This document shows, in pieces, positions 36,313 to 47,629 of a stretch of DNA of 57,843 bases. Numbering within the stretch: position 1 is the stretch's first letter; each line of letters opens with the position of its first letter. The notes under the pieces are model-generated. The model saw only the letters and a program-made list of their open reading frames with translations, was not told where the DNA came from and made no database searches. The stretch comes from Actinomycetota bacterium (GTDB lineage Bacteria; Actinomycetota; Humimicrobiia; Humimicrobiales; Humimicrobiaceae). Position numbers and translations under genes: made by a program. The stretch spans positions 70,001 through 127,843 of the forward strand of contig JAQVDY010000003.1 in the NCBI GenBank assembly GCA_028698215.1, read 5' to 3'.

Positions 36313-38123
36313 TGCCTTTTGAAAGCCATAAGCATATTGATTATAAACAATTCAAGACCTCTTACCGGACACACCTATGTGGAGAAATCAGGAAGGATAA
36401 CTTAAATGAAAAAGTAAGTTTATGCGGCTGGGTGAACAGCAGAAGGGACCATGGTAAGCTTATCTTTATAGACCTAAGGGATTTTTCGGGAATAATCCAG
36501 CTGGTTTTTGACCCCGCCCGTAGCTCGGAGACTTACTCTTTGGCTAAAAAAGTCAGGACAGAGTTTGTATTAAGGGTTGAAGGTTTAATAAGGAAAAGAA
36601 GCAAGGATACTGTAAATAAAGATTTGGCTACCGGTGAAATAGAGTTATCCGTAGAGGACCTAAAGGTATTGGGAAAATCGAGTACCCCTCCATTTTTATT
36701 GACAGAAACTGAAAAAGTAGATGAGATGTCTAGGCTTAAGCACCGCTATATGGACTTAAGGTCAACCAAGATGCAGGAAAACTTAAGGCTAAGGCACGCC
36801 ATTGTTTCCCAAACCAGGGATTATTTAAATCAAAAAGGTTTTCTGGAAATAGAAACTCCCATATTAGCTAAAAGCACTCCAGAGGGGGCCAGGGATTTTT
36901 TGGTTCCTTCAAGACTCAATCCAGGGAAATTTTATGCGCTTCCTCAATCTCCTCAATTATTTAAACAAATATTAATGTTTTCAGGTTTCGATAGGGCTTA
37001 CCAGATAGCCAAGTGCTTCCGGGATGAAGATCTTAGAGCAGACCGGCAGCCGGAATTTACCCAGATTGATCTGGAAATGACTTTTGTTGATGAGGATGAT
37101 GTAATTAGTCTTATTGAAGGGATGATGGCTGTAGTATTCAGGAAAGTGCTTAACACTGAATTAAAACTGCCCTTTAGGAGAATGACCTGGCAGAAAAGCA
37201 TGGAAACCTACGGTAGCGATAAGCCTGATCTAAGGTATGATTTGCCTTTGACTGATGTATCTGATATCTTTTCCGGCACCTCCTTTAACGTATTTAAACA
37301 GGTATTATCTAAGAAAGGCTGCATTAAAAGCCTGGTTATAAAAGAGGGGCAATCCTTTACCAGAAAAGACTTGGACCAGTTAATTGAAATGGCTAAAAAC
37401 TATGGAGCCGGTGGACTGGTTTGGGCTAGGGTAGAACCGGACAATACCTTAAAATCACCAATAGCAAAATTTTTATCGACTGGCGAGACTGGCAGCCTGG
37501 TTAAAAAACTAAAATTAGAGCCTGGCAATCTTTTGATAATGGTAGCTGATAATTTTCTGGTTACCTGTAATAGCCTGGGCGCTATCAGAAAACACATAGG
37601 CCAGAAATTAGGGTTGATCAAATCGGGTTATGAGTTTCTGTGGGTGCATGATTTTCCTTTATTCGAAAAGGATAGCCGGGATAATACTATTACTCCAATG
37701 CACCATCCTTTCACTCAACCTGACTGTGAAAGCATCAAGCTATTAGACCATGACCCTTTACAGGCCAAATCATTAGCTTATGACATAATTGTAAACGGCC
37801 AGGAACTGGGCGGAGGTTCAATAAGAATAAATGATTTAAACCTTCAAAAGAAAATTTTTGAGTTGCTAGGGTTTACCCCGGAAATGATAGAGCAAAATTT
37901 TGGTTTCTTTATAAAAGCCATGGATTATGGTATACCACCACATGGAGGTATTGCCCTGGGGCTGGATCGGTTGGTCATGATTTTGGGACAACTGGAAAGC
38001 ATAAGGGATGTTATTGCTTTTCCGAAAACCCAGTCTGCTGTATGCATGATGACTGACTCTCCGTCAGGGGTAACCAATAAACAATTGCAGGAAGTACATA
38101 TTGAGATAACTAAAAGTGATTAA
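36312..38123 (+). CDS. aspS: Aspartate-tRNA ligase, bacterial type
   Basis: Class II synthetase of 603 residues, the full bacterial length including the GAD insertion domain. The N-terminal OB fold has GWVNSRRDHGKLIFIDLRD; motif 2 is FRDEDLRADRQPEFTQID; the GAD region lies at about 300-420; motif 3 is GIALGLDRLVM. Whether it is discriminating or also charges tRNA-Asn cannot be read from the window. It closes the housekeeping run; the next gene begins 10 bp later but belongs to an accessory pathway. Confidence 0.97.
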   Translation: MPFESHKHIDYKQFKTSYRTHLCGEIRKDNLNEKVSLCGWVNSRRDHGKLIFIDLRDFSGIIQLVFDPARSSETYSLAKKVRTEFVLRVEGLIRKRSKDTVNKDLATGEIELSVEDLKVLGKSSTPPFLLTETEKVDEMSRLKHRYMDLRSTKMQENLRLRHAIVSQTRDYLNQKGFLEIETPILAKSTPEGARDFLVPSRLNPGKFYALPQSPQLFKQILMFSGFDRAYQIAKCFRDEDLRADRQPEFTQIDLEMTFVDEDDVISLIEGMMAVVFRKVLNTELKLPFRRMTWQKSMETYGSDKPDLRYDLPLTDVSDIFSGTSFNVFKQVLSKKGCIKSLVIKEGQSFTRKDLDQLIEMAKNYGAGGLVWARVEPDNTLKSPIAKFLSTGETGSLVKKLKLEPGNLLIMVADNFLVTCNSLGAIRKHIGQKLGLIKSGYEFLWVHDFPLFEKDSRDNTITPMHHPFTQPDCESIKLLDHDPLQAKSLAYDIIVNGQELGGGSIRINDLNLQKKIFELLGFTPEMIEQNFGFFIKAMDYGIPPHGGIALGLDRLVMILGQLESIRDVIAFPKTQSAVCMMTDSPSGVTNKQLQEVHIEITKSD

Positions 38124-38133
38124 GGAGAAAGAA

Positions 38134-39021
38134 ATGAAAGAAAAGCTAAGCGGTGTATTTGTACCAACTATAACCCCCTTTGAGGATGATCAGGTGCAAT
38201 ACGGACAGTTGGAAGAGAATTTAAAAAAGATTAACAGCACCCCAATAACCGGGCATCTGGCACTAGGTTCAAATGGTGAATACAAGAGCCTGACTAGGGA
38301 TGAGCAGTTAAAAGTATTAGAAGTTTTTATAAAAAACAAGGGTGATAAAATAGTTATGGCTGGTACCGGTTGTGAGTCTACCAGGGAAACAGTGCAGCTA
38401 AGTAAGCAATGCCAGGAAATTGGTGCAGATTTTGTTAGCGTGCTTACCCCCAGTTATTTTAAAAAAGTTATTAATGATGATGTCCTTGTAAGCTACTATA
38501 CTGAAATAGCCGATAATGTAGATATCCCTGTGCTCATCTACAATGCTCCTGGTTTTACCGGCGGGGTTAATATTTCTCCCAAAGCAGTACGGAAACTGGC
38601 AGAGCATCCTAATATTGTAGGAATGAAAGACAGCTCACCAGCAGGCTTGATGGGTTATTTGAATGCCACTAGGGATTTAGAGGGATTCTATGTGCTTGCT
38701 GGTTCCATTAACTTCTTTTTAACTGGCCTGATTTTCGGAGCAGTAGGTGGAATTATTTCCTTGGCTAATGCTATACCTGAAGTTTGCTGCCGGCTATATC
38801 AGTTATATACCGATGGAAAAATGGAAGAGGCAATCAAGCTGCACATGGATTTATTCCAGATAAATGGAAAGGTATCAGGAGCAAATGCTGTAGCTGGAGT
38901 TAAAAGCGCTGCCGCCCTTTGTGGTTACCATGCTGGAGATCCCAGAAGACCGCTAATACCCTTAACTTCTGAGCAAAAAGAGCAAATGAGTCAATTTTTT
39001 AAAGAAAAAGGATTGGTTTAA
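38134..39021 (+). CDS. DHDPS/NAL-family aldolase or dehydratase A
   Basis: A 295-residue class I (Schiff-base) lyase of the dihydrodipicolinate synthase superfamily. Catalytic Tyr136 (LIYNAPG) and Lys165 (GMKDSS) are present, with GSNGEY as the substrate-carboxylate loop. The arginine that lysine-pathway DapA uses to hold aspartate semialdehyde is missing after the Tyr segment, so a role in cleaving or dehydrating a 2-keto-3-deoxy or hydroxy acid is more likely; pyruvate would be a product. Start ATG 38134 with AAGGAG; an upstream in-frame GTG overlaps aspS. One base separates it from the next dehydrogenase. Confidence 0.85.
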   Translation: MKEKLSGVFVPTITPFEDDQVQYGQLEENLKKINSTPITGHLALGSNGEYKSLTRDEQLKVLEVFIKNKGDKIVMAGTGCESTRETVQLSKQCQEIGADFVSVLTPSYFKKVINDDVLVSYYTEIADNVDIPVLIYNAPGFTGGVNISPKAVRKLAEHPNIVGMKDSSPAGLMGYLNATRDLEGFYVLAGSINFFLTGLIFGAVGGIISLANAIPEVCCRLYQLYTDGKMEEAIKLHMDLFQINGKVSGANAVAGVKSAAALCGYHAGDPRRPLIPLTSEQKEQMSQFFKEKGLV

Positions 39022-39022
39022 T

Positions 39023-39988
39023 ATGAAGGTTTTATTAGGCCAGTCTATTCATGAACAAGCTGTCAAGCTTCTCAAAGAAAATAATATTGAGGTTGTAATA
39101 TCTCCTTCTCCCGAAGATGAAGTGGTAAGGCAACATATCGTTGATGCTGATGCTATTATTGTCAGAACAGCTACCAAGCTAAGCAGGGAGACAATAGAAT
39201 CTGCCCCTAATTTAAAAGTAATCGGCAGGACAGGCGCTGGGGTAGACAATGTTGATGTTGAGGCCGCCTCAGAACACAATATACCAGTATGTAACACTCC
39301 GGAAGCAAATACTTCTGCCGTAGCAGAGCATGCAGTCTGTTTCATGTTAGCCCTAGCCAAAGATTTAAGCGCAATGGATAATGCAGTAAGGGAGGGTAAC
39401 TGGAAGATTAGGTTTAATTACACTCCTGTTGATATTTCGGGTAAAACATTGGGCCTGCTGGGATTTGGCAAAATCGGCAGGACTACTGCTCAGATGTGCT
39501 ACCGGTCTTTTGGTATGCAAATATTGGCCTATGACCCCTATCTGCCAGCTGATCTTAAAACCGGTTTTCCTTATACTTTAGCGGATAATATGGAAGAAAT
39601 TTTTGAGGATTCTGATTTTATATCTTTGCATATACCCTACACTAAAGAAAATCACTATATAGTAGGAAAAAAGTTGTTGGAAAAGATGAAAAACAGCGCT
39701 TACCTGATTAATACTTCCAGGGGAGGACTAATTGATGAAAAAGCTTTAGCCAAGGCTTTAACTGAACATAAAATTACAGGGGCTGCATTGGATGTTTTTG
39801 AAGACGAGCCTCCTAAGCCTGATAATCCCTTGCTTGAATGTGAAAACATAATTCTAAGCCCCCATTCTGCTGCTTTAACCAAAGAGAGCGCTACCCGTAT
39901 GGCAGTACATGCAGCCATGGGAGTAATTGATGTATTACACAACCGAAAACCGAAATGGGTATTTAATATCAAAGAAATTACCTTATAG
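39023..39988 (+). CDS. D-2-hydroxyacid dehydrogenase A (SerA-like catalytic part)
   Basis: A 321-residue NAD-dependent dehydrogenase. The nucleotide site is LGFGKIGR near residue 150, and the catalytic triad is Arg in NTSRGG, Glu in DVFEDEPP and His in LSPHSA. It has only the catalytic and NAD domains, without the ACT regulatory domain of long SerA enzymes. Substrate could be phosphoglycerate, glyoxylate or hydroxypyruvate, or a sugar-derived keto acid. It sits between an aldolase and a sugar kinase, which favours a catabolic role such as recycling NADH by reducing a keto acid. Confidence 0.85.
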   Translation: MKVLLGQSIHEQAVKLLKENNIEVVISPSPEDEVVRQHIVDADAIIVRTATKLSRETIESAPNLKVIGRTGAGVDNVDVEAASEHNIPVCNTPEANTSAVAEHAVCFMLALAKDLSAMDNAVREGNWKIRFNYTPVDISGKTLGLLGFGKIGRTTAQMCYRSFGMQILAYDPYLPADLKTGFPYTLADNMEEIFEDSDFISLHIPYTKENHYIVGKKLLEKMKNSAYLINTSRGGLIDEKALAKALTEHKITGAALDVFEDEPPKPDNPLLECENIILSPHSAALTKESATRMAVHAAMGVIDVLHNRKPKWVFNIKEITL

Positions 39989-39990
39989 GA

Positions 39991-41322
39991 ATGAAAAAGC
40001 CAGATTGCTACTTGGCTATTGATGCTGGTACCTCCAGCGTCAAGGTAGGGATAGTAGACCAAGAATATAACCTGGTTAGGCAGGCCAGTGAAAGCTATTG
40101 CTTTAAAGCTGAAAAAAAAGATGAAGTTTCGCTTGATTTTAAGCTTTTAATGGCCAAACTGCTAAAAGCTCTATCCCCGTTAAGGGAAGATTTATCTGTT
40201 ATTAAAGGGGTAGCTTTTTCAGTTCTTTGTCCAGGACTAGTGCCTTTAGATAAGGAGGGTGAACCCTTAACAGATGCCATAATACACTTGGACAGGCGGA
40301 GCGTGCGGCAGGCTCAGCAGGCTTTGAAGTTAATAGGAGAAGAAGAATTTTTAAAGTATTCTGGCAATCTGCCTTTTCCCGGAGGGATATCCCTGACCTC
40401 TATGTTATGGATTAAGCAGAATTGGCCCGATGTATATAAAGATACTTATATGTGGGGTCACACCAATACTTTTTTGGCCAGGCAGTTTACCGGTAAGTTT
40501 GGAATTGATCCCAGCAATGCATCCTTTACCGGTCTTTATAATACGGTAGGATATTCTGATTGGAATATGGATTTAGCAAGTACTTTAGGAATTGATAAGG
40601 ATAAGCTGCCCCCGGTTCTTTATTCACACCAGGTAGTAGGAAATATTACCAGACAAATAAATAACCTAACCGGCATTCCCCAGGGAGTGCCGGTTACTAT
40701 TGGTGCTGCGGATACTGCCTGTGCCGCAGTGGGTGCAGGAGTAAATGAAGATGGGCGGATTCTCAATTCCACCGGTACAGTAGAGCTGATGGTATTGTGC
40801 ATGGATAAACCGGCAGTAGATAAAAGACTGCTGCTTAGAACTCACCCTATCCCTCAAAAATGGCTTAGCATGAATATAATTGGAGCGGGTGGAGCATCAG
40901 TAGAATGGTTTAGAAAAAATTTTTGCAGGGAAATGGATGAGGATTATTATTACCGTAAATACCTTCCTCGGGTATTAAATGATTATAAGATTAGATGCCA
41001 GTTCAGGCCCTACCTGGCTGGAGACCGTTTAAGTTTTAGCCAGAAGGCAGGTTCCTTTAGCAACTTGTCCTTGGGTACCGAACGGGAAGATATGCTAAGG
41101 GCTCTGGTAAATGGTATCATCAAGCCTATGGAAAAAGCGCTGCACCAGTTTGAACAAATAACCAATACTAATAAAATTATCAGGTATACTGGAAAAGGAA
41201 GCAGTTTCCTAACCCAAATTAAAAAAGAGAAATTTTACCCTTATATTTTGGAGCCCACCATTACCAATAATACCCTTATAGGGGCCGGTATGCTCATAAA
41301 AATGAATAATGGAATTAATTAG
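39991..41322 (+). CDS. FGGY-family carbohydrate kinase
   Basis: A 443-residue sugar kinase, somewhat shorter than the usual 480-500. The N-terminal phosphate loop is LAIDAGTSSVKVGIVD; the second half has NSTGTVELM and GAGGASVEWF, then TGKGSSFLTQI where the family usually has GGG(A/S)xS. It phosphorylates a ketose, polyol or sugar acid; xylulose- or fuculose-type substrates are candidates given the fucose-isomerase-like enzyme nearby. The gene follows dehydrogenase A by 2 bp. A promoter for gntR begins right after its stop, so the upstream trio is a separate transcription unit. Confidence 0.85.
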   Translation: MKKPDCYLAIDAGTSSVKVGIVDQEYNLVRQASESYCFKAEKKDEVSLDFKLLMAKLLKALSPLREDLSVIKGVAFSVLCPGLVPLDKEGEPLTDAIIHLDRRSVRQAQQALKLIGEEEFLKYSGNLPFPGGISLTSMLWIKQNWPDVYKDTYMWGHTNTFLARQFTGKFGIDPSNASFTGLYNTVGYSDWNMDLASTLGIDKDKLPPVLYSHQVVGNITRQINNLTGIPQGVPVTIGAADTACAAVGAGVNEDGRILNSTGTVELMVLCMDKPAVDKRLLLRTHPIPQKWLSMNIIGAGGASVEWFRKNFCREMDEDYYYRKYLPRVLNDYKIRCQFRPYLAGDRLSFSQKAGSFSNLSLGTEREDMLRALVNGIIKPMEKALHQFEQITNTNKIIRYTGKGSSFLTQIKKEKFYPYILEPTITNNTLIGAGMLIKMNNGIN

Positions 41323-41432: not shown

Positions 41433-42152
41433 ATGAACAAATCTGATTTAAAATCAGTTAATAATAAAAGCACCGTTCAGATGGTAATAGACCAGTTAAT
41501 CAGTCAAATAAAAAAAGGCCAGTTAAAACCCAATGATAAAATGCATTCCCAAAGAGAACTAGCTAAAAGGTTTAAGGTGGGAAGAAGTTGCGTAAGGGAA
41601 GCCCTCCAGGCTCTAAGCCTATCCAATATAATTGAAATTAAGCCCTGCAAAGGGGCTTTTATTTCAGAACTATCCATAGAGTCCATTATGAACCCGGCTA
41701 AAGTCCATCTTACTGTAACCAAGGAAGAGCTTTTTGATTTAGTCAATGTAAGACTTATTTTAGAAACTGCAGCCATTAGAGATGCAGTAGTTAATGCCTT
41801 ACCGGGAGATTTAGAAAAACTTCAAAGACATATAAACAATACCAAGAAATGCCTTCAGGAAAACAAAATTGACCTATATTATTTTGAAGATTACGAATTT
41901 CACAAAACTATTTTTAATTGTACCCAAAACAAGGTATTAATAAATATATTTGATTTTATCTTTGAGATCCTGGTGGAAGGCATAAAAACCACTGCCCAGG
42001 TGCCTGGTTCTAAAGATAGGGGATTAAAATGGCATAAGGAAATATATAAGCATATAAAGAATAAGGATGTGGATGGTGCAGAGAAAGCCCTGACCAGCCA
42101 CCTTATGCAAATTAGGGAGGATATTAATAGGGCAGATTTTTTAATGAGTTAA
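41433..42152 (+). CDS. GntR-family regulator, FadR/FCD subfamily
   Basis: A 239-residue transcription factor. The N-terminal winged helix-turn-helix is seen in KMHSQRELAKRFKVGRSCVREALQ and KPCKGAFI (about residues 30-80). The C-terminal helical FCD domain (VRLILETAAIRDAV, YYFEDYEFHKTIFN, WHKEIYKHIKNKD) has the Asp/His positions that usually bind a metal and a carboxylate effector, so the inducer is probably a sugar acid or other organic acid. It probably represses its own promoter and the isomerase-ALDH genes behind it. Confidence 0.9.
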   Translation: MNKSDLKSVNNKSTVQMVIDQLISQIKKGQLKPNDKMHSQRELAKRFKVGRSCVREALQALSLSNIIEIKPCKGAFISELSIESIMNPAKVHLTVTKEELFDLVNVRLILETAAIRDAVVNALPGDLEKLQRHINNTKKCLQENKIDLYYFEDYEFHKTIFNCTQNKVLINIFDFIFEILVEGIKTTAQVPGSKDRGLKWHKEIYKHIKNKDVDGAEKALTSHLMQIREDINRADFLMS

Positions 42153-42200: not shown

Positions 42201-43544
42201 ATGGCAATTAAATTTAGAAAGGTTAAGCTGGGGTTTGTTAATTTAGCCCTGGATTTTCTGGATGAAGAAGATCTAAAAACTGCTTCCGGCTATGCTAAAG
42301 ATGCCAGGGAATTGCTGGAAAGCATGGGGGCTGAAGTGGTTGAATTCCCTAAACCCATGGATTCCAGGCCATTGGCTAATGAAGCTTGGAAACTATTTAC
42401 AACCGAAATTGTAGACGCCGTAGTTATATTCAATGGTACTTTCTCTACAGGCGACATCACTGTGGAGCTGGTAAGAAACATGGATTGCCCCTTCTTGATC
42501 TGGGGCATAGAAGAATTTGCCGCCAGCAAGCATAATTTTACCGGCTCTATGGTAGGAGCAATGCCTGCAGGCAGCATTTTTAAAAATTTCGGCAGGACAT
42601 TTTCTTTTGTCTATGGCAATGCCAAAGGCGGTAGGCCAAATCATGGTGTACAAAAATTTATTAAAGCGGTAACTGCTATTGCTTATCTTAGGGAAGCAGC
42701 CATAGGGGTAATTGGAATGAGGCCTGATGGCTTTGAAATTTCTGATTTTGATGAGCTGGCTATCAAACAAAAATTCGGCACCACTATCACCAAGGTTTCT
42801 ATGTATGAGTTCTCTAATATAATTAAGGGAATTAGCGAAGAAGAAATTGATAAGGATATGGAAACCCAAAAACAGATATTCGAGATTGCAGAAAAAGATT
42901 TGGAGGAATCAAGAGGGCTATCCAGAGTATATCTTGCAGTTAAAAAGGTAGTGGAAGAAAAGAATCTAAAATCTTATGCACCTGATTGCTGGCCTGAATT
43001 AAGGGACATAGACAAAACTCCTATTTGTCCTGCTAACGGCCGTTGCAATGCTGAAGGTATTATGGCTTCCTGTGAAAACGATGTTGATGGATCTTTAACT
43101 TTAATGCTGCAATATGTGCTTGCTGGAAGTACTCCCTGGTTTGCAGACTTTGTAAATATTATAGATGACCTGGATGCATTACTTTTCTGGCACTGTGGAA
43201 ATTCACCTTATAATCTGTCTTACAAGAAAACCAAAATAGAAAGGGTATTTGGGGGATTAGCAGAGACAGATTCTTTAAAGGGCGGAGTGGCTACAGTGTG
43301 CAGGCTCAATTCAATAAGAGGGGAATATGCTATTCATGCAGGTATTGGAGAAGTAATTGAAACCGAGCCCTTGCTGAAGGGCAGCAACCTTTGCATAAAG
43401 ATGAAAGGTGGAAATTTCGAATTTGTAGAGTCACTTCTCAGGAATGGTATTCCTCATCATAATGGATTGGTTTACGGTGATATTTTAGAGGAACTGGAAG
43501 AATTTGCAAAGCTGATGCAAATACCTTTTGTTGTACAAAAATAA
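42201..43544 (+). CDS. L-fucose/L-arabinose-isomerase-like sugar isomerase
   Basis: A 447-residue protein of the COG2407 type, shorter than E. coli FucI (about 590). Likely metal ligands are Glu and Asp in ASCENDVDGSLT and His in LLFWHCGNSP; the C-terminal substrate domain follows (GIPHHNGLVYGD). It should interconvert an aldose and a ketose with Mn2+, but the sugar is unknown. Start ATG with GGGAGG in the leader. It follows gntR by 48 bp and precedes the aldehyde dehydrogenase by 19 bp, so all three form one unit. Confidence 0.8.
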   Translation: MAIKFRKVKLGFVNLALDFLDEEDLKTASGYAKDARELLESMGAEVVEFPKPMDSRPLANEAWKLFTTEIVDAVVIFNGTFSTGDITVELVRNMDCPFLIWGIEEFAASKHNFTGSMVGAMPAGSIFKNFGRTFSFVYGNAKGGRPNHGVQKFIKAVTAIAYLREAAIGVIGMRPDGFEISDFDELAIKQKFGTTITKVSMYEFSNIIKGISEEEIDKDMETQKQIFEIAEKDLEESRGLSRVYLAVKKVVEEKNLKSYAPDCWPELRDIDKTPICPANGRCNAEGIMASCENDVDGSLTLMLQYVLAGSTPWFADFVNIIDDLDALLFWHCGNSPYNLSYKKTKIERVFGGLAETDSLKGGVATVCRLNSIRGEYAIHAGIGEVIETEPLLKGSNLCIKMKGGNFEFVESLLRNGIPHHNGLVYGDILEELEEFAKLMQIPFVVQK

Positions 43545-43563: not shown

Positions 43564-45036
43564 ATGAAAGAATTTAAGCTGTTTATCAACAACCAGTGGG
43601 TTGATGCCGAAAATGGCAAAACCTTTATTTCCTATTGCCCCGCTACGGGCGAGGAACTGGCAAAACTTGCAGCTGCTTCCGAAAATGATGTAAACAAGGC
43701 AGTAGCTGCAGCTAAAGCTGCTGCCCCTAAATGGGCTGCTATGAGCGGTGATCAGAGAGCTGACCTGATGATGAAAGCTTTGGAAATAATGAAGAGAAGG
43801 CATCAGGAACTGGCAGAATGGGAAGCTAAGGATGTAGGGAAACCCATTCATGAAACAGTCAATACTGATTTACCTTATGCTTTTATGGCTATGGAGTATT
43901 TCTCCAATAAGGCCAGGCAAATCAGGGGAGATGAAGTACCTATTGCTGGGGGAGAAACATTATGTTATGAAACCTGGGAGCCTTATGGCGTAGTAGGCTC
44001 AATTATTCCCTGGAACTTCCCCATACATATTGGTACCAGAACCATATGCCCTGCGTTATCTGCAGGAAATACCGTAGTTTTAAAAGCTTCCAGTATGGCT
44101 CCCATCACCTGCCAGATGCTGGGTGAAATTTTCTTGGAAGCCGGTTATCCTGAAGGTGTGTTAAATATTGTATCTGGGTCAGGGAGTGTTACCGGGGAAG
44201 CCATGCTGGTACATCCTGATATAGACATGATTTCTTTTACTGGCTCTACTGCTGTGGGCAGAAGATGCATGCAGGCTGCTGCTGAATCAAACTTAAAGAA
44301 AGTAATTCTAGAGCTGGGCGGCAAAGGCCCCTTCATTGCTGAGCCTGACTGCAAAGTGAGCGATGCAGTTAATTCTCTCATATTAGGATTCTGTTTCATG
44401 CAAGGAGAAGTTTGCTGTGCTTCCACCAGGCTATATGCCCATGAAGACATTTATGATGAGTTTGTAGACCTGCTGGTAAAAAGATGTAATTCCATGAAGA
44501 TTGGCGATATCATGGATCCTGAAACCAGGATGGGAGCCTTGATAGATGAGAATCAGTATAAAACTATTGACGGTTACGTACAAAGAGCTGTAAAAGACGG
44601 CGCTAAACTATTATGTGGAGGCCAAAGGGTAACTGGTGGAGTATTTGATAAAGGATTCTTCTATCCTCCTACAGTGCTGGAAGTCAACGATAACAGTATG
44701 GAATGCGTACAGGAAGAAATATTTGGGCCAGTGGTAACCGTAATGAAATATAAAACCTTTGAAGAAGCTCTGGAACTTGCCAATGATACTGTATACGGCC
44801 TGGGTGCTACTATTTGGAGCGAGAATGTTAGAAAGCTTATCAAAGCTACCAGAACATTGGATGCCGGTATAGTATGGATGAACACAAATGTTATGTCTAA
44901 GATCGAAGCTTCTTATGGGGGCAATAAATTAAGCGGAATCGGTAGAGAAGGCGGAGAAGTCGGCCTTATGGAATACCTGAAGTGCAAGAACAATGTTCTT
45001 TTCTTGGGCGAAGAAGGCAATTACTACGGATTCTAA
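43564..45036 (+). CDS. NAD-dependent aldehyde dehydrogenase, non-acylating type
   Basis: A 490-residue classical ALDH that oxidises an aldehyde to its acid. Motifs are IIPWNFPIHI (cofactor), SFTGSTAVGRR, ELGGKGPFIAE with general base Glu250, GEVCCASTR with the nucleophile Cys284, and EEIFGPVV. It resembles lactaldehyde/glycolaldehyde/betaine-type dehydrogenases, not the CoA-acylating EutE/PduP type usual in microcompartments, and I see no added encapsulation helix at either end. Ribosome site AAGGAGG. A strong hairpin follows the stop. Confidence 0.92.
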   Translation: MKEFKLFINNQWVDAENGKTFISYCPATGEELAKLAAASENDVNKAVAAAKAAAPKWAAMSGDQRADLMMKALEIMKRRHQELAEWEAKDVGKPIHETVNTDLPYAFMAMEYFSNKARQIRGDEVPIAGGETLCYETWEPYGVVGSIIPWNFPIHIGTRTICPALSAGNTVVLKASSMAPITCQMLGEIFLEAGYPEGVLNIVSGSGSVTGEAMLVHPDIDMISFTGSTAVGRRCMQAAAESNLKKVILELGGKGPFIAEPDCKVSDAVNSLILGFCFMQGEVCCASTRLYAHEDIYDEFVDLLVKRCNSMKIGDIMDPETRMGALIDENQYKTIDGYVQRAVKDGAKLLCGGQRVTGGVFDKGFFYPPTVLEVNDNSMECVQEEIFGPVVTVMKYKTFEEALELANDTVYGLGATIWSENVRKLIKATRTLDAGIVWMNTNVMSKIEASYGGNKLSGIGREGGEVGLMEYLKCKNNVLFLGEEGNYYGF

Positions 45037-45175: not shown

Positions 45176-46144
45176 ATGAATGATAACCGTTTTAAAGTAG
45201 TTTTTACTGATTATGATTTCGAAGATGTAGCTATTGAAAAAGAAGTCTTGTCACAAATGGATTGTGATATAGTAGAGCTACAAAGCAAAGATGAGGACAA
45301 GCTAACCGCAGAATGCGCAGACGCTGATGGTTTAATAGTGCAGTATGCTCCCATATCCGATAAGGTAATTGCGGCTATGCAGAAATGCAAAGTAATATCC
45401 AGGTATGGTATAGGGGTAGATACCATCAACTTATCGGCAGCTACCCAAAAGGGAATAAAAGTATGTAATGTCCCTGATTACTGCTTGGATGAAGTAGCTG
45501 ACCATAGCTTAGCTTTGATTATGTCTTTGGGAAGAAAAATAGTAGATTTAACCAAAGCCGTAAAATCAGGGGTATGGGATGCAGTAGGGACATCTAAACC
45601 TGTATTTAATTTTAAAAGGCAGATACTGGGTATCATAGGGTTCGGAAAGATTCCTCAAAACCTTTACCCCAAGGTAAAGGCCCTTTTTGGCAAAGTACTA
45701 ATATATGATCCTTATGTAAGCCAGGAAATAAAAGACCAGTTTGGCTTGGAAATGGCTAGTTTTTATGAAATAATTCATAATTCAGATTTCCTTTCTATTT
45801 ACTGTCCTTTAAATGATTCCACCTTTCACATGTTTGACCAGAGAGAATTCCAAATGATGAAGCCTACCTCTTTTATTGTGAATACCTCCAGGGGCGGCAT
45901 AATAAATACAGAAGCTTTGTATCTGGCTTTAATTCACGGCCATATAGCTGGAGCAGGATTGGATGTATTGGAACAGGAACCGCCTGGAATAGATAATGAG
46001 CTGGTTAAGCTGGATAATGTAATAGTAACTCCTCATGCCGCTTTCTATTCTGAATCTTCCATTGAGGATTTAAAATACAAAACCGCCTTGAATATTGTAA
46101 AAGTTTTAAAAGATGATAACCCACAAAATGTGGTTAATCGGTAG
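45176..46144 (+). CDS. D-2-hydroxyacid dehydrogenase B (CtBP/PGDH-like)
   Basis: A 322-residue dehydrogenase of the same family as the enzyme at 39023-39988 but only distantly similar to it. Catalytic Arg (VNTSRGG), Glu (DVLEQEPP) and His (VTPHAA) are present. The glycine-rich loop reads GFGKIPQ: the third glycine of GxGxxG is Pro160. Function and cofactor preference may differ from the family norm. First gene of the unit that ends with the BMC shell protein. Confidence 0.82.
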   Translation: MNDNRFKVVFTDYDFEDVAIEKEVLSQMDCDIVELQSKDEDKLTAECADADGLIVQYAPISDKVIAAMQKCKVISRYGIGVDTINLSAATQKGIKVCNVPDYCLDEVADHSLALIMSLGRKIVDLTKAVKSGVWDAVGTSKPVFNFKRQILGIIGFGKIPQNLYPKVKALFGKVLIYDPYVSQEIKDQFGLEMASFYEIIHNSDFLSIYCPLNDSTFHMFDQREFQMMKPTSFIVNTSRGGIINTEALYLALIHGHIAGAGLDVLEQEPPGIDNELVKLDNVIVTPHAAFYSESSIEDLKYKTALNIVKVLKDDNPQNVVNR

Positions 46145-46162: not shown

Positions 46163-47347
46163 ATGGATATACCTGAAGGCGTAATCGTAGCAATGCTTAC
46201 CCCCTTTGACGAGCAGGGGAAAATAAATGAAGTAGAGGTAAGAAGGTTCGTTAATTTTTTGATTGATAAAGGGGTTGACGGTTTATTTCCGGTAGCTTCT
46301 TGTGGTGAGTATACCCATATGGATATGGGTGAAAGAAAGTTTTTAATTGATGTCGTGGTAGATGAAGCCAGGGGCAGGGTAGATGTAATACCGGGTTCCG
46401 GGGCTACTTGTCACCATAAATCAGTAGAGATAGCAAATTATGCTAAGGAAAAAGGCTGCTCAGGAGTAGTTTTGCATGGGCCTTACTTTTTCCAGAATAC
46501 CAAGGAAGTAGTAGAAGGTCACTTAAGAAAAGTAGCAGAATCGGTAGATATTCCTATCTTTTTATACAATATTCCATTCTTTGCCAATGAAGTTACTCCC
46601 CAAATGGCAGAAAACCTGTGCAATATGCCTAATGTAGTTGGAATAAAGGATTCTTCTGGCAATATGGTTAATGTTATGAACTTGATCGAAATGACCAGAA
46701 AGGTAAACCCTGATTTCAGGGTATTGGTAGGTGCAGAGGAAATACTTCTACCAGCATTAATGATGGGCGGCAGGGGCTGCATGACTGCTACTGCAGGTAT
46801 TATGCCTGAATTTATGGTGGGCATATATAAGAACTTCCTAAACCAAAACACCCAGAATGCTGCCAATTTGCAGTTTGCAATCCTTCCCTTGATCAGGGAA
46901 ATGAAATCTGTAAACTTTCCTCAGGGATTTAAAGAGGCTTTGGATGTTAGGGGCATAAATACAGGACCTCCTATGATGAACTATCCCCCCCAGGAAATGG
47001 CTAAGATTGCTGATTTAAAAACCAGGTTAGAGCTGGAAATGGAAAACCTTATGGATAAATATTTCACAGGAGTTTCCCTTAAATACAGGGAAGGCAGTGA
47101 TATAAGGGCCAAGCTAAGTTATCCTGCCCCCATGGCCAGCGAAACCACAGCAGGTATTAAAAAATATAGTGATTGTGTAGTATGCGGTATGTGTGATGGC
47201 GATGTTGAATGCAAGGTAGTACCTTGCGACAGTGTTTCCACCGATAGTGCCCAGCAGGCTACACCTATAGGCAATAAGGAAAATATAGATGAAGCTCAGC
47301 TTCAGGAAATAATTGCACAGACTATTAAGAAGGTTCTGGGCCAATAA
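46163..47347 (+). CDS. DHDPS/NAL-family aldolase B with Cys-rich segment and encapsulation-peptide-like tail
   Basis: A 394-residue protein, about 95 longer than the family norm. Residues 1-300 are a complete class I aldolase barrel with Tyr135 (LYNIP) and Lys162 (GIKDSS); the carboxylate loop is ASCGEY, and the DapA-type arginine is absent. After the barrel comes a segment with five cysteines (C338, C341, C344, C350, C355; CVVCGMC...ECKVVPC) that could bind a metal or Fe-S centre. After a flexible linker, residues 376-394 (DEAQLQEIIAQTIKKVLGQ) form an amphipathic helix of the kind that targets enzymes into microcompartments. The BMC-H gene follows after 18 bp. The likely reaction is retro-aldol release of pyruvate plus an aldehyde; the substrate is unknown. 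Confidence 0.85.
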   Translation: MDIPEGVIVAMLTPFDEQGKINEVEVRRFVNFLIDKGVDGLFPVASCGEYTHMDMGERKFLIDVVVDEARGRVDVIPGSGATCHHKSVEIANYAKEKGCSGVVLHGPYFFQNTKEVVEGHLRKVAESVDIPIFLYNIPFFANEVTPQMAENLCNMPNVVGIKDSSGNMVNVMNLIEMTRKVNPDFRVLVGAEEILLPALMMGGRGCMTATAGIMPEFMVGIYKNFLNQNTQNAANLQFAILPLIREMKSVNFPQGFKEALDVRGINTGPPMMNYPPQEMAKIADLKTRLELEMENLMDKYFTGVSLKYREGSDIRAKLSYPAPMASETTAGIKKYSDCVVCGMCDGDVECKVVPCDSVSTDSAQQATPIGNKENIDEAQLQEIIAQTIKKVLGQ

Positions 47348-47365: not shown

Positions 47366-47629
47366 ATGAATAAAGCATTAGGTTTAATTGAGACCAGAGG
47401 GCTGGTAGGGTCCATAGAAGCTGCTGATGCCATGGTGAAGGCAGCCAATGTAACTCTAATTTCTAAAGCTTATGTAGGCGGAGGATTAGTTACAGTCATA
47501 GTTGAAGGTGATGTAGGGGCAGTAAAAGCTGCTGTAGATGCAGGTTCTGCTGCCGCCAAGAGAGTGGGGGAGGTAGTATCTGTACATGTTATACCTAGGC
47601 CCCATGAGGAAACATCAAAAATAATTTAA
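47366..47629 (+). CDS. Bacterial microcompartment shell protein, BMC-H (hexamer)
   Basis: An 87-residue single BMC domain close to EutM/PduA/CcmK. Diagnostic stretches are [49 protein letters not shown] and [22 protein letters not shown]. The pore loop (between the YVGGG strand and VTVIVEG) has small residues, which suits passage of small polar metabolites. Only this one shell gene is in the window; a BMC-P pentamer and BMC-T trimers would be needed for a closed shell and must lie elsewhere. Start ATG after AAAGGATTAAG. Confidence 0.95.

Follow-up and report, generated by a model that had tools for sequence, protein, structure and literature searches.

A DHDPS/KDG-superfamily aldolase with a conserved tetracysteine linker and a putative encapsulation helix, encoded beside a BMC-H shell gene

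The closest described counterparts of the locus reported here are the class II aldolases (PF00596) of the PVM, GRM5 and ACI BMCs, which are cargo enzymes making a short aldehyde, and among which the ACI enzyme carries a C-terminal encapsulation peptide (EP) (PMC8217296); in fucose/rhamnose BMCs, class II aldolases have been proposed to yield L-lactaldehyde (PMC3557285). Shell genes may also lie together with an enzyme gene at satellite loci distal from the main locus, as in the HO satellite with its two BMC-P genes and an aldolase, and in the parts of the BMC catalogue covered here it is considered that such loci possibly widen what a BMC can process (PMC8217296). Fe-S elements have been described in PduK, a BMC-H protein whose disordered tail closes with a Cys-rich motif, its four cysteines being the proposed Fe-S ligands (PMC6325248, PMC12058022), and in the PduS/PduT pair of BMC Fe-S redox proteins; four Pfam domains define PduS, whereas PduT is recognised from a conserved cysteine in a C-P/S/A-G-K/R/S-Y/F motif, which is a ligand of a 4Fe-4S cluster (PMC6325248).

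The locus lies in a window of 57,843 nucleotides from an uncultured actinomycete (the whole stretch of DNA that was analysed; Table 1), and it shares with these systems an aldolase that would act as cargo and make a short aldehyde, a C-terminal EP-like tail, and a shell gene next to an enzyme gene at a distance from the main locus. In contrast with the PF00596 enzymes, the window aldolase belongs to PF00701 and has a tetracysteine in its EP linker. The HO satellite differs from the window pair, which consists of one BMC-H gene and a DHDPS-type aldolase, the related satellites of the order carrying other aldolase folds. PduK resembles the aldolase tail but is a shell protein, whereas the aldolase motif sits on a catalytic enzyme, between the catalytic domain and the targeting helix; PduS and PduT, which have homologues in the main locus of the window genome, are dedicated redox proteins, whereas the aldolase reaction is non-redox. 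PF00701 aldolases are not named in the main text of the BMC catalogue (PMC8217296), and no dihydrodipicolinate-type or 2-keto-3-deoxy aldolase cargo was found in the portion of the BMC literature that was covered.

Table 1. Features of the aldolase/BMC-H locus, in window coordinates.
Feature	Position	Strand	Evidence or remark
Second DHDPS-like aldolase, 301 aa, no tail (internal control)	38116..39021	+	sequence + length
Second D-2-hydroxyacid dehydrogenase-like protein	39023..39988	+	sequence; homologues travel with locus
FGGY-family carbohydrate kinase	39991..41322	+	PF00370
GntR/FCD-family regulator	41433..42152	+	PF00392, PF07729
Fucose/arabinose-isomerase-like protein	42201..43544	+	PF02952, PF24856
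NAD-type aldehyde dehydrogenase, operon partner, no terminal tag	43564..45036	+	PF00171, 546 bits; termini inspected
D-2-hydroxyacid dehydrogenase, operon partner, no terminal tag	45176..46144	+	PF02826/PF00389; termini inspected
Aldolase gene, DHDPS/KDG-superfamily barrel + Cys-module linker + C-terminal helix, 394 aa	46163..47347	+	PF00701
Catalytic barrel, residues 1-300	46163..47062	+	AlphaFold2 barrel; final barrel-side helix stops at 300
Linker, predicted disordered, residues 301-376	47063..47290	+	block pLDDT 26-47 across most (AlphaFold2)
Tetracysteine core C338-x2-C341-x2-C344-x5-C350 (CVVCGMCDGDVEC)	47174..47212	+	kept as CxxCxxCx3-5C
Fifth cysteine C355, lineage-specific	47225..47227	+	five-cysteine clade only
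Terminal amphipathic helix, residues 377-393, putative EP	47291..47341	+	two AlphaFold2 models
BMC-H shell protein gene (satellite)	47366..47629	+	PF00936, 100 bits

The tailed protein is a DHDPS/KDG-superfamily aldolase. PF00701 matched residues 5-273 with 214 bits against a cut-off of 22 (Pfam), and DHDPS, YagE and N-acetylneuraminate lyase (NanA) were its closest neighbours in the PDB, both by sequence and by Foldseek (probability 1.00). An assignment to DapA was not obtained, as the curated cut-off of TIGR00674 was not reached (177 bits vs 206). K162 (in VVGIKDSSG) and Y135 (in YNIP) showed no variation across alignment A1, and we take them to be the catalytic lysine and tyrosine of the aldolase superfamily, which YagE, DapA and NanA have in common with the window protein, as they do the barrel fold. 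These enzymes, however, are of ~290-310 aa and have no tail. In the window protein the Pfam match extends to residue 273, and residue 300 is the end of the last barrel-side helix, in agreement with the first-pass annotation, which had placed the end of the barrel near residue 300; the frame then continues to a C-terminus reading ...ENIDEAQLQEIIAQTIKKVLGQ. The cysteines that had been listed for this tail (338, 341, 344, 350 and 355) are all present, those outside it being at positions 47, 83, 99, 153 and 206. In L019, L039 and L048 the locus is likewise joined by homologues of the tail-less aldolase of this gene neighbourhood.

The linker was predicted to be disordered in the window protein, with similarly low pLDDT in a second AlphaFold2 model, that of the homologue L020, and it evolves fast, residues 357-375 sharing 0-11% identity beyond the nearest species. 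The helix that follows had a block pLDDT of 82 (AlphaFold2), and the L020 model showed the same layout (helix 377-394). All of the full-length members (12/12) kept a terminal amphipathic stretch, with identity to the window helix dropping to 0-26% beyond the genus and its sister genus. When hydrophobic moments were compared with those of shuffled sequences, using one member per linker clade, the helix was amphipathic over the five clades combined (p = 5e-5), the window helix alone being not significant (p = 0.09). Used alone as a PDB sequence query, the tail gave no match up to E = 10. By the definition of the BMC encapsulation peptide in the covered part of PMC8217296, the tail has the features of an EP, namely a predicted helix of ~15-20 residues, a flexible linker and amphipathicity (combined clades). 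Helices of a similar type were found on the cargo of the main locus, at the C-terminus of the class II aldolase and at the N-termini of PduL and of the aldehyde dehydrogenase, and the tailed aldolase was alone in bearing such a terminal extension among those operon proteins whose termini were inspected.

The aldolase was detected in 13 of the 35 genomes of the order, that is, in 13/23 genomes with BMC genes vs 0/12 without them (Fisher p = 8.6e-4, an indicative value that overstates independence, the genomes being related). The tail was visible in 12 of the 13 carriers; a contig end truncates the copy of G017, and the G004 copy is split, with its barrel on one contig and its tail on another. 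Among 397 genomes drawn from the phylum, the aldolase was found nowhere else at E <= 1e-75. Homologues from BMC-free genomes with the same extension, which the first-pass annotation had proposed to look for, were searched for: six relatives at 40-47% identity came from a second phylum, in genomes with no BMC domains, and all were tail-less (the three that were read fully end at 312 aa, and the open frames of the remaining three span 304-313 aa). In G034, a broken copy (L075, G034:C91, 7094-7640) lacks most of the barrel and has a stop within the linker, while its tetracysteine and terminal helix are still recognisable.

This distribution could also arise if the tail were an element for protein-protein contacts or oligomer bridging that has nothing to do with BMCs, and the link between the two a phylogenetic coincidence. 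The carriers are limited to one family of one order, both traits are shared by descent among related genomes, and a BMC-H gene beside the aldolase was found solely in the window genus and one sister genus, all of which would fit such an element; but in L018 the aldolase-BMC-H pair is retained though the sugar genes are not alongside, several unrelated BMC-linked enzymes of these genomes bear similar helices, and BMC-free genomes carry tail-less relatives, so that we regard a coincidence as quite unlikely. That the tail merely follows an adjacent BMC-H gene was ruled out by the g10 and g4 loci, which have no adjacent BMC-H. The targeting of the aldolase to a BMC through its tail, with the terminal helix that the first-pass annotation had pointed out, is well supported by the comparison of sequences and models: the helix, predicted in both homologue models, is conserved, within the order the aldolase is confined to genomes with BMCs, the relatives from BMC-free genomes are tail-less, and the main-locus cargo carries similar helices.

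The BMC-H gene reported downstream of the aldolase was confirmed by its profile match and starts 18 bp past the aldolase stop; its product shares 75-78% identity with the two BMC-H proteins encoded by the main locus. The latter is on a different contig, C6, and includes two BMC-H, two BMC-T and four BMC-P genes, together with a PF00596 class II aldolase, PduL, a EutE/PduP-type aldehyde dehydrogenase (522 bits vs a cut-off of 403) and an RnfC-like protein of PduS architecture, with all four Pfam domains that define PduS; both BMC-T proteins (L022 12869-13417 and 17497-18072) have the sequence CPGKY, which conforms to the Fe-S-ligating motif of PduT, at residues 38 and 41, respectively. Because the main BMC locus sits on another contig, the aldolase and BMC-H genes, a shell gene with an enzyme distal from a BMC-H/BMC-P main locus, represent a satellite locus as defined in PMC8217296. 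We consider it probable (about 0.68) that the pair is such a satellite and that the aldolase is a targeted cargo of the main BMC.

A satellite that builds a compartment of its own, instead of joining the main BMC, appears very improbable. It has its own regulator gene, and no PduL or BMC-T match was obtained in the carrier G006, which is 97% complete; however, in the established BMC architecture a shell that has a lone BMC-H but no BMC-P stays open, and the identity between the satellite and main-locus BMC-H proteins also speaks against a separate shell. The main locus of G006 is probably in an assembly gap, since a contig of G006 breaks off next to the pair of BMC-P genes flanking this locus, and G006 was thus rejected as a carrier lacking the main BMC. 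The window operon comprises no obvious sugar-acid dehydratase. The fucose/arabinose-isomerase-like gene is conserved along with the locus, and its product had SftI (sulfoquinovose isomerase) as best NCBIfam match (NF048012, 195 bits vs a cut-off of 700); a sulfoquinovose pathway was discarded, this match being far under the cut-off.

Other satellites were observed in these genomes. Contig C7 (L024 5504-7193) carries a shell-only satellite with five consecutive BMC-P genes and then one BMC-H, and in a C7-type satellite of a sister species (G006:C19 20624-20851) a BMC-H match has an in-frame TGA and is likely broken. In L058 (G034:C49, 1832-4370) an orphan BMC-H gene lies between a D-2-hydroxyacid dehydrogenase and a PF01116 class II fructose-bisphosphate-type aldolase, both of which end in amphipathic EP-like stretches, making this another aldolase satellite. 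In L061 (G022:C9, 3724-11767) two BMC-H genes are near a DeoC aldolase, an aldehyde dehydrogenase and an acetate-kinase-like gene, the EP-like stretch being N-terminal on the DeoC aldolase and C-terminal on the aldehyde dehydrogenase. Given these orphan BMC-H genes beside PF01116 and DeoC aldolases with EP-like stretches, this lineage may have satellite aldolases as a regular trait.

The tail cysteines had been described in the first-pass annotation as a five-cysteine module, which stood for its four-cysteine core but not for C355. The core is present in 9/9 module-bearing full-length homologues and also in the tail fragment of G004, and its codons show synonymous TGT/TGC changes and zero replacements; together with one Asp, the four cysteines persist among module-bearing members while the surrounding linker is almost unalignable. 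As judged from the alignments, purifying selection acts on the four core cysteines, whose conservation goes beyond chance. C355 is restricted to the window genus and one sister genus, where the module is of the five-cysteine type, and a module of all five cysteines was ruled out because this residue is confined to that one clade. G024 and one G022 copy have the type CxxCGxCx4C, the second G022 copy, G021 and G023 have CxxCxxCx3C, and G007-G009 have the tail and helix with the Cys module absent. Since this sister clade keeps the helix and lacks the module, the module is dispensable for targeting and for catalysis in general, and a requirement for targeting was excluded as a general rule. In the tree the no-module clade falls beside module-bearing clades, and because the tree, with its long outgroup, does not fix the root, loss of the module and its original absence both fit.

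A six-frame scan of the examined DNA (ORFs of >=100 aa) found CxxCxxCx3-5C elsewhere only in ferredoxin-type-looking proteins, and the six representatives that were selected all matched Fer4 families (6/6; Pfam). The aldolase tail thus has the ligand motif of ferredoxin-type 4Fe-4S proteins, CxxCxxCx3-5C, but not their profile, no Fer4 profile matching it up to E = 1 (Pfam), and its Cys region falls in predicted disorder (AlphaFold2, window protein and L020). Of the metal or Fe-S centre suggested earlier, it can be said that the ferredoxin-like spacing and the purifying selection favour it over chance, whereas the missing Fer4 match and the predicted disorder weigh against it. Binding of a 4Fe-4S cluster would be the most likely role of the tetracysteine, although we hold it at close to even odds and as less certain than the reading of the aldolase as satellite-encoded, targeted cargo.

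Predicted disorder would also suit an exposed, metal-free thiol/disulfide switch controlling cargo loading or condensation, as would the additional fifth cysteine in one clade, and the carboxysome scaffold CcmM, with its redox-sensitive cysteines, offers a precedent. Such a switch seems rather unlikely, however, because CxxCxxCx3-5C is an Fe-S ligand spacing whose other carriers in the examined DNA are 4Fe-4S proteins only, and because hydrogenase-type and other Fe-S genes suggest an anaerobe, in which disulfides are less likely. Somewhat less likely again is a structural zinc site folding a small linker knuckle: short Cys motifs often bind zinc, and a short stretch with four conserved cysteines plus a conserved Asp could serve for it, but a CxxCxxC core is atypical for zinc and typical for Fe-S, and the remaining carriers of the motif are Fe-S proteins. 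The spacing of the conserved cysteines hints that a cargo enzyme of an organelle carries a redox or metal element of a sort not reported before.

Regarding the reaction, we infer that a 2-keto-3-deoxy sugar acid is the substrate of the barrel and is split to give pyruvate and a short aldehyde, for which L-lactaldehyde is the best guess. A sugar dehydrogenase, a lactonase and a dehydratase together convert a sugar, by a non-phosphorylating route, to a 2-keto-3-deoxy acid, which a 2-keto-3-deoxy acid aldolase splits into pyruvate and an aldehyde, this being L-lactaldehyde when the sugar is a 6-deoxy sugar. In G008 and G009 the genes next to the aldolase encode an SDR, an MBL-fold hydrolase and a dehydratase of the enolase superfamily. 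In G008 these three had L-rhamnose 1-dehydrogenase, a lactonase and L-rhamnonate dehydratase as their best NCBIfam matches; the substrate is a guess, as all of these matches fall under the curated cut-offs, and lactaldehyde is perhaps the aldehyde fed to the main BMC.

The last 17 residues, the predicted amphipathic helix, would dock on hexameric shell proteins and, as the comparison suggests, would load the aldolase into the main BMC of the genome, where the EutE/PduP-type aldehyde dehydrogenase with its EP tag, together with PduL, would take over the aldehyde, while the extra BMC-H would co-assemble with its 75-78% identical paralogues. As a working idea, the tetracysteine may be a redox-responsive or electron-relay element near the PduS/PduT-like Fe-S proteins of the same shell. 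A more specific and decidedly tentative proposal, which we regard as doubtful though slightly less so than a metal-free switch, is that the cargo enzyme bears its own 4Fe-4S cluster on the linker, and that loading, clustering or the redox state of the lumen is sensed or wired via the targeting arm (an Fe-S-gated or electron-conducting tag).

Through this locus the pyruvate-aldolase (DHDPS/KDG) superfamily joins the enzymes that apparently feed BMCs. The locus also suggests that in this lineage one shell is supplied by several interchangeable satellite-encoded aldolases. With a tetracysteine on the targeting linker, electron exchange or redox sensing in the BMC lumen becomes testable on a small, separable peptide, for which the natural homologues with and without the Cys module are ready controls.
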